A stretch of 41,267 nt of DNA from the NCBI GenBank assembly GCA_021163005.1, contig JAGGXP010000016.1, positions 1 through 41,267 of the forward strand, read 5' to 3'. Below are positions 15,401 through 32,554 of this stretch, one piece after another. The position numbers were made by a program, and so were the translations under genes. The notes under the pieces were generated by a model. The model searched no databases. It was not told the origin of the DNA and was given only the letters and a program-made list of their open reading frames with translations. Position 1 is the first letter of the stretch; each line of letters begins with the position of its first letter. This stretch comes from Candidatus Aenigmatarchaeota archaeon. Its GTDB lineage: Archaea; Aenigmatarchaeota; Aenigmatarchaeia; QMZP01; JAFGSV01.

Positions 15401-15423
15401 AGCTATCAATGCCCCCGGGGGGA

Positions 15424-15502
15424 TACTCAGCATCTTTTCATTTTTGCGTTAGCGTACTTTCCGGTGCGCGCTTTTCCATGTATGCTTATGGAAAAGGGTG
15501 CC
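15424..15502 (-). other. tRNA-Arg intron 2 (79 nt, T-loop 59/60)
   Basis: The junction has central helix TTCA/TGAG (one T-G pair), 5' bulge AAG (cut AA^G), 3' bulge TAT (cut TA^T), outer helix the T stem, and inner helix GCA/TGC. Removing it restores T loop TTCAAAT. Inside is a 9-bp hairpin CTTTTCCAT/ATGGAAAAG followed by a block (15475-15458) identical over 18 nt to the D-loop intron of tRNA-Gln at 32451-32434. The 5' end is also shared over 13 nt. Confidence 0.88.
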
Positions 15503-15524
15503 TTTGAACCCTCGATCTTCGGCT

Positions 15525-15575
15525 GTCTTCTCTCATAGTTCGCCACAGGCAAACTCGAATCTTCTAGTGCGAGAC
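15525..15575 (-). other. tRNA-Arg intron 1 (51 nt, canonical 37/38 site)
   Basis: The bulge-helix-bulge junction is textbook. The central 4-bp helix is CTTC/GAAG, the 5' bulge TAG (cut TA^G) and the 3' bulge ACA (cut AC^A). The outer helix is GGC/GCC of the anticodon stem and the inner helix is TCTC/GAGA. Inside the intron, GTTTGCC and GGCGAAC form a 7-bp hairpin. An alternative 8-bp hairpin, CTTCTAGT/ACTAGAAG at 15581-15561, would instead hide the anticodon and the 5' cut site. Confidence 0.9.
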
Positions 15576-15637
15576 TAGAAGGCCGACGCCTTATCCAAAC
15601 TAGGCTACGGGGGCCTGTTGTTGATTAATAAGCTTCT

Positions 15638-32223: not shown

Positions 32224-32234
32224 CGTTAAAAAAT
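32224..32234 (-). promoter_or_regulatory. T-tract after tRNA-Gln: terminator and promoter of the HTH gene
   Basis: On the minus strand the tRNA discriminator base is followed at once by TTTTTTAAC. The T run fits a termination signal for the tRNA. The same ATTTTTTAAC lies about 25 nt before the HTH gene ATG at 32204, the position of a TATA box. Confidence 0.5.
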
Positions 32235-32247
32235 AGCCCTGGGCGGA

Positions 32248-32321
32248 TTTTCTGAACCAATGTTCGCGGGAGCTTACTTTCCGTGAAGGCTTTGGCACGC
32301 TTGCCTGTGCCAAAGGGTTCA
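32248..32321 (-). other. tRNA-Gln intron 3 (74 nt, T-loop 59/60)
   Basis: Outer helix is the T stem GGCGG/CCGCC and central helix TTCG/AGAA (three pairs plus G-A). Both bulges are AAT (cut AA^T) and the inner helix is GAACC/GGTTC. A TTTGGCAC/GTGCCAAA hairpin follows, then CACGGAAAGTAAGCT, which aligns with CACCGGAAAGTACGCT of tRNA-Arg intron 2 at the same site. Confidence 0.88.
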
Positions 32322-32342
32322 TTCGAACCGCCGCCGCCGGTT

Positions 32343-32389
32343 TTCTTCGCTGTCATCGCCCGAAGGCATCAACTCTTCGGAGCAGCGCT
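32343..32389 (-). other. tRNA-Gln intron 2 (47 nt, canonical 37/38 site)
   Basis: Central helix CTTT/GAAG (one T-G), 5' bulge GGA (cut GG^A), 3' bulge AAA (cut AA^A), outer helix the anticodon stem CCGGT/ACCGG, and a short inner GC/GC. The intron body has a GCC-TTCG-GGC hairpin. It does not share the sequence block of the D-loop and T-loop introns. Confidence 0.85.
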
Positions 32390-32412
32390 CCAAAGACCGG
32401 CATCCTTGGCCA

Positions 32413-32516
32413 TTTTCCCGCCCCTTTCTGTTTTTTCCGGTGCGCGCTTTTGCCCCGGTTTCCGCCTGAGCGGAGACAAGGGAACTTGTTCCCGCCACTC
32501 GGTCAGAAAAGGGTGC
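32413..32516 (-). other. tRNA-Gln intron 1 (104 nt, D-loop)
   Basis: The junction has outer helix GTC/GGC, central helix GTCT/GGAA (one G-A mismatch, one T-G), 5' bulge AGG (cut AG^G) and 3' bulge AAT (cut AA^T). The inner helix CACCCTTTTCTG/CAGAAAGGGGCG pairs 11 of 12 positions. The intron contains a GGGAAC/GTTCCC hairpin. Its 5' end (13 nt) and block 32451-32434 (18 nt) are identical to parts of tRNA-Arg intron 2, which sits in a T loop. Confidence 0.85.
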
Positions 32517-32554
32517 CTAGACGACAGGGCTGTTGATAAATAGAATGCATCCGG

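Follow-up and report, generated by a model that had tools for sequence, protein, structure and literature searches.

A three-intron tRNA-Gln(UUG) gene in an Aenigmatarchaeota genome and the likely repeat-element origin of two of its introns

The window analysed here is a stretch of 41,267 nucleotides (nt) from a Candidatus Aenigmatarchaeota archaeon, a member of the DPANN (GCA_021163005.1, JAGGXP010000016.1), and is contig 35 of a 945-kb, 43-contig assembly that is 91% complete. It contains a locus that can be read as a tRNA-Gln(UUG) gene interrupted in the D loop, the anticodon loop and the T loop, which raises the questions of whether so heavily broken a gene could give a working tRNA and of where its introns came from. 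Genomes are referred to by G numbers (that of the window being G000), contigs by C numbers and loci by L numbers. The explanation that we favor, with a probability of about 0.93, is that this is a functional and probably essential tRNA-Gln(UUG) gene with three bulge-helix-bulge (BHB) introns that would be cut by an epsilon2 endonuclease and the exons joined by RtcB, in which the anticodon intron is ancestral and the D- and T-loop introns are mobile-element insertions.

Structure of the tRNA-Gln(UUG) gene

The minus strand reads AGCCCTGTCGTCTAG, a 104 nt intron, TGGCCAAGGATGCCGGTCTTTGG, a 47 nt intron, AACCGGCGGCGGCGGTTCGAA, a 74 nt intron and TCCGCCCAGGGCTA (Table 1), such that 225 of the 298 nt (75%) are intron, in agreement with the 'three quarters' given by an earlier reading made from the sequence alone. 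The spliced 73-mer has a 7 bp acceptor stem that includes an A1-U72 pair, a D stem GTCT/GGAT, an anticodon stem CCGGT/ACCGG and a 5 bp T stem GGCGG/CCGCC, with CTTTGGA as the anticodon loop, TTCGAAT as the T loop, and A73 at its end. The sequence-only reading had listed the segment lengths, the T stem, both loops and the A1-U72 pair with the strand unstated, and all are present once the minus strand is read; a plus-strand reading of the locus fails, with no T arm ahead of the 3' acceptor.

ARAGORN with default settings names the spliced 73-mer tRNA-Gln(ttg), and neither ARAGORN nor Rfam cmscan reports a tRNA in the unspliced window, as had been anticipated for standard gene finders. The ARAGORN intron search of the raw region yields a tRNA-Pro at a relaxed threshold only, which is spurious. 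Minimum free energy folding gives no cloverleaf for the mature sequence of either G000 or G003, a member of the same genus, and therefore was not used as a test.

The strongest test of the predicted parse is the comparison with G003. Syntenic places in relatives were located through the downstream 107-aa helix-turn-helix (HTH)-like gene, and next to this same neighbor G003 carries AGCCCTGTCGTCTAGTGGCCAAGGATACCGGTCTTTGG, an interval of 45 nt, and AACCGGCGACGGCGGTTCGAATCCGCCCAGGGCTA. This gene differs from the predicted mature window tRNA at 2 of 73 positions; its D and T sites are precisely empty, the anticodon intron alone is present, and the exons join as predicted. The proposal of a tRNA-Gln(UUG) gene with three introns is upheld by these joins and by the recognition of the spliced product as a normal tRNA-Gln, and a four-exon gene on the minus strand is confirmed as far as sequence comparison can do so. 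Among the possible cut points of the D intron, only that between AG and TGG gives both the uninterrupted G003 sequence and BHB cuts.

The BHB motif was defined as two 3-nt bulges with a 4-bp helix between them, situated at the exon-intron junctions. All three introns fit an hBHBh' structure in which both cuts (^) follow the second nucleotide of a 3-nt bulge, and since this fit fixes the cuts the introns are placed at positions 15/16, 37/38 and 59/60. At the anticodon site the H helix is CTTT/GAAG (4 pairs) with bulges GG^A and AA^A; at the D site it is GTCT/GGAA (3 pairs and one mismatch, but four pairs in G002) with bulges AG^G and AA^T; and at the T site it is TTCG/AGAA (3 pairs and one mismatch; TTCG/CGAA in G011 and G017) with bulges AA^T and AA^T and an inner helix GAACC/GGTTC. 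A BHB motif is thereby predicted at every junction, in a relaxed form for the D and T introns. No Rfam family, group I introns included, reaches its gathering threshold in the window, and the introns (47-104 nt) are too short for the open reading frame of a homing endonuclease.

The genome encodes both a splicing endonuclease and an RtcB ligase, as expected of a host of BHB introns. The endonuclease, a 398-aa protein, has its nearest relative of known structure in the ARMAN-2 epsilon2 enzyme (4fz2; E 1.4e-87, residues 14-398), and enzymes of the epsilon2 type cleave non-canonical introns (reviewed in PMC4033280). The pre-tRNA-Gln would be cut by this epsilon2-type enzyme at its three BHB sites, and RtcB would join the exons. 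There is also a second tRNA-endonuclease-like protein, an alpha-type paralogue of 188 aa (L151 586-1152; orthologues L096-L103). In all seven genomes examined, our own included, it has HSIRA at the place of HSVRK, of which the lysine is presumably the catalytic residue of the splicing endonuclease; the paralogue seems to have lost the catalytic lysine, and the loss to be conserved.

Table 1. Coordinates of the tRNA-Gln(UUG) gene, its R1 elements, its neighbors, and the second intron-rich tRNA gene of the window.
Feature	Position	Strand	Remarks
tRNA-Gln(UUG) gene, four exons and three introns	32234..32531	-	parse; synteny; intron-poor G003 orthologue
Exon 1, nt 1-15	32517..32531	-	acceptor 5' strand, D stem 5' strand, A14 G15; A1 = 32531
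D-loop intron, 104 nt, site 15/16	32413..32516	-	ends pair CACCCTTTTC/GAAAGGGGCG (inner helix of D site); G002 homologue at same site
Exon 2	32390..32412	-	from 3' part of D loop to G37
Anticodon-loop intron, 47 nt, site 37/38	32343..32389	-	found in every Gln(UUG) orthologue inspected; predicted ancestral
Exon 3	32322..32342	-	A38 through T-loop TTCGAA
T-loop intron, 74 nt, site 59/60	32248..32321	-	90% identity to tRNA-Thr(UGU) T-loop intron, C4:10611
Exon 4	32234..32247	-	T stem 3' strand, acceptor 3' strand; discriminator A73 = 32234
R1 element within T intron	32271..32320	-	63.5 bits
R1 element within D intron	32427..32516	-	36.1 bits; extra insertion in hairpin loop
Downstream HTH-like gene, 107 aa	31890..32213	-	adjoins tRNA-Gln also in G003, G005 (synteny)
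Upstream gene, 100 aa	32571..32873	-	tRNA-Gln neighbor also in G001, G002, G003, G005 (synteny)
tRNA-Arg(UCU), second intron-rich tRNA of window	15411..15614	-	anticodon intron ~51 nt, T-loop intron ~79 nt
R1 element in tRNA-Arg(UCU) T-loop intron	15451-15501		

Presence and absence of introns in related genomes

The three sites are variously occupied among the tRNA-Gln(UUG) orthologues. In G002, of the same genus, all three sites are filled (introns of 63, 47 and 74 nt), the D introns of G000 and G002 being homologous at their ends and identically placed, and G155 has three introns too. The anticodon and T introns are found in G001, G011 and G017, the D and anticodon introns in G005, G007 and G013, and the anticodon intron only in G034, G036, G012, G024, G022, G014, G016 and G006. 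Two candidates for intron-free genes, in G008 and G030, were rejected, both being tRNA-Gln(CUG). The T-intron sequences at one site differ between genomes. From this distribution we judge that the anticodon intron goes back to the ancestor of the order and that those at the D and T sites are later additions of patchy occurrence.

The alternative that survives best is one in which all three introns were already in the ancestor of the genus, with G003 having lost the D and T introns and G001 the D intron. The common site and end homology of the G000 and G002 D introns are what it would predict, but outside the genus the anticodon intron stands alone in most genomes, the T introns differ in sequence at the same site, and the T intron of G000 shares 90% identity with an intron of another tRNA in the same genome. 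We regard it as a possible history, with the balance of evidence tilted towards later insertion of the D and T introns, with which a loss in G003 alone may also be compatible.

The R1 repeat element

When the unspliced gene is compared with its own genome the intron sequences recur elsewhere, with pieces of the D intron at other loci that include the D loop of a tRNA on contig 11. Sixteen aligned copies of the recurring element, R1, share a hairpin of the form NNAC-C-CTTTTnnnn/nnnnAAAAG-C-GTNN followed by ACGGAAA. Double changes occur at seven of its pairs, and the covariation score is 0.378 as against 0.113 in shuffled alignments (0/500 reach it) and <0.1 when the pairing is slid.

A covariance model made from the aligned copies was used to count R1 by genome. 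There are 61 copies in G000, 23 in G002, 20 in G003, 23 in G011 and 24 in G019, and the model finds none in G001, G004, G010, G015 or G018; altogether R1 is present in 65 of 156 Aenigmatarchaeota genomes. It is absent from 15 other archaeal genomes, mostly Thaumarchaeota and Woesearchaeota, which is a weak control.

Many of the copies lie in genes for structural RNAs. Within G000, 16 of the 55 copies listed are inside tRNA genes recognized by our parser (the three window copies counted), and others can be discerned by eye in tRNA-Leu and further tRNAs that the parser missed; three copies are in 16S and three in 23S rRNA (contig 23, L154 and L155). Certain copies come immediately after the 3' end of a tRNA, and others are intergenic or in arrays. 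Outside G000, a sample of 20 copies consists mostly of tRNA insertions, the T loop being the usual place, with a single copy inside 16S rRNA; a further sample, with flanks judged by eye, has R1 in 16S-like (L208) and 23S-like (L209) sequence. All four copies sampled in G155 (L200-L203) are antisense to the tRNA that they interrupt, including the three-intron tRNA-Gln(UUG).

On our favored explanation the D- and T-loop introns would be insertions of phylum-wide, short, non-coding, hairpin-forming mobile elements, which would be tolerated because the RNA is spliced, and R1 would move at the DNA level. Spread by reverse splicing into RNA, reverse transcription and recombination is a different route that would suit the sense orientation of most sampled copies, which lie within RNA genes at BHB-capable sites. 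It has more difficulty with copies that are outside RNA genes or form tandem arrays, and movement as DNA is favored because RNA reverse splicing does not readily account for the antisense G155 copies; we consider the RNA route unlikely. A fuller version of the DNA-level explanation, whose chances we see as evenly poised, sees in the D and T introns copies of an Aenigmatarchaeota element, non-autonomous and mobile as DNA, which resembles a miniature inverted-repeat transposable element and whose transcribed ends form a BHB. Such an element would insert, whatever its orientation, into tRNA and rRNA genes that are essential and then be spliced out, leaving the tRNA set of the phylum extensively broken in a manner made tolerable by epsilon2.

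We also note several unusual arrangements of these repeats. At L166 (G000:C3:21560-21842) two 83-bp tandem copies of the 5' end of a tRNA-Lys(CUU) gene (GGGCCTGTAGCTCAG) lie ahead of the gene itself, and each is joined to an R1 element, an arrangement that looks like the duplication of an insertion intermediate. An 82-bp R1-like unit (TAAGCCTTTTCTGGCCGAGGCATGAAAAAGCCTTAAGGGAAAA) forms tandem arrays at L159, L173 and L176, at contig ends and downstream of tRNA-Leu. In a tRNA-Thr gene (L152) the anticodon intron itself consists of 40-nt tandem repeats, and G104 and G024 have R1 copies at similar-looking 16S positions.

Function of the gene and its wider setting

A search of the genome with the mature sequence returns only pieces of the window locus, which is the sole tRNA-Gln(UUG) gene of the assembly; an intact second copy was what the sequence-only reading had specified in advance as counting against it. 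A tRNA-Gln(CUG) gene with introns is on contig 42. The CUG anticodon should not read the glutamine codon CAA, which the UUG tRNA serves, and as the window gene is also the only copy it should be essential; we conclude from its sequence that it is probably functional and essential. Three observations weigh against our explanation: the 91% completeness of the assembly, which might lack a further Gln(UUG) gene, the one non-pairing position in the H helix of each of the D and T introns, and the weak outer helix at the D site.

The same incompleteness lends something to the view that this is a dead gene broken by repeats, with an intact second copy doing the work, as does the occurrence of the repeat elements in intergenic regions and arrays besides tRNAs. 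Set against it are the mere 2 exon differences in 73 from G003 with all stems intact, the absence of another copy from the assembly, the retention of the same three introns in G002, BHB geometry at every site, and the many other tRNA genes of this genome that are interrupted alike, and we consider it very improbable.

A multi-intron tRNA scorer, which uses generic tRNA features but was written after the hand parse of the gene, gives the locus 22.3, whereas 3000 dinucleotide shuffles of its 600-nt region reach at most 18.7 and the maximum over 60 shuffled loci of the same genome is 16.1; because the scorer postdates the parse, the comparative test outweighs it. The idea that a pattern-seeking reader, for whom three free cuts allow many cloverleaf constructions, put tRNA-like fragments together by chance has a negligible probability, with none of the 3000 shuffles reaching the score, and is refuted by the contiguous exons of the syntenic G003 gene.

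Many other tRNA genes of G000 are interrupted in like manner, and in the window the tRNA-Arg(UCU) gene is missed by both ARAGORN and Rfam. The Rfam tRNA model RF00005 counts 7 tRNAs in G000, 7 in G002 (a single contig), 28 in G003 and 67 in G001, and from these counts the intron load seems to vary strongly inside one genus. With RF00005 recovering only 7 tRNAs in G000 and G002, tRNA counts across the phylum may therefore mislead.

Several known systems are similar in part. In Thermoproteales it is established that a tRNA gene may hold as many as three introns and that similar introns recur in different tRNAs, from which transposition was inferred (PMC4090602 and PMC4033280, both citing Fujishima 2010; PMC8450103). 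R1 likewise provides similar introns across different tRNAs within one genome; unlike those introns it is in Aenigmatarchaeota, occurs also in 16S and 23S rRNA and as tandem copies, and is antisense in one genome. Thermoproteales 16S rRNA genes have short BHB introns, several per gene, of hairpin-only or homing-endonuclease types (PMC4496867), and the rRNA copies of R1 are alike in being short BHB introns with several per gene; the differences are that one repeat family is common to rRNA and tRNA, and that the window introns are too short for an endonuclease gene. Multi-intron tRNAs are known in ARMAN-1/2, and the epsilon2 endonuclease in ARMAN-2, according to a review (PMC4033280, citing Fujishima 2011 and Hirata 2012; PDB 4fz2). 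G000 resembles ARMAN-2 in having a nearly full-length epsilon2 homologue, but differs from it in also encoding the second, alpha-type paralogue without the conserved catalytic-site lysine. In the Asgard groups Atabeyarchaeia and Freyarchaeia most tRNA genes are interrupted, more than half of them by multiple introns, a heavy interruption much like that seen here, and no shared intron family is reported in the portion of that paper used (PMC11291895).

Three-intron tRNA genes had been called rare and known mainly from Thermoproteales and a few small-genome archaea. Their occurrence in Thermoproteales stands, and their rarity was overstated, multiple introns being common in some Asgard genomes (PMC11291895) and G002 and G155 having three-intron genes as well. 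A search of the openly searchable literature retrieved no report of Aenigmatarchaeota tRNA introns or of any one repeat family that the introns of tRNA and rRNA have in common. Within that literature a phylum-wide element common to tRNA and rRNA appears to be undescribed; the multi-intron tRNA-Gln(UUG) gene is itself of a known type, and what appears to be new is the R1 family behind two of its introns.

Counts of tRNA genes taken as a measure of completeness or decoding in Aenigmatarchaeota may thus be far too low. More broadly, tRNA introns are here caught with filled and empty sites within one genus, and two of the tRNA-Gln introns probably derive from the R1 repeat family. This makes the gain of archaeal tRNA introns directly testable, in terms of orientation, target sites and enzyme.
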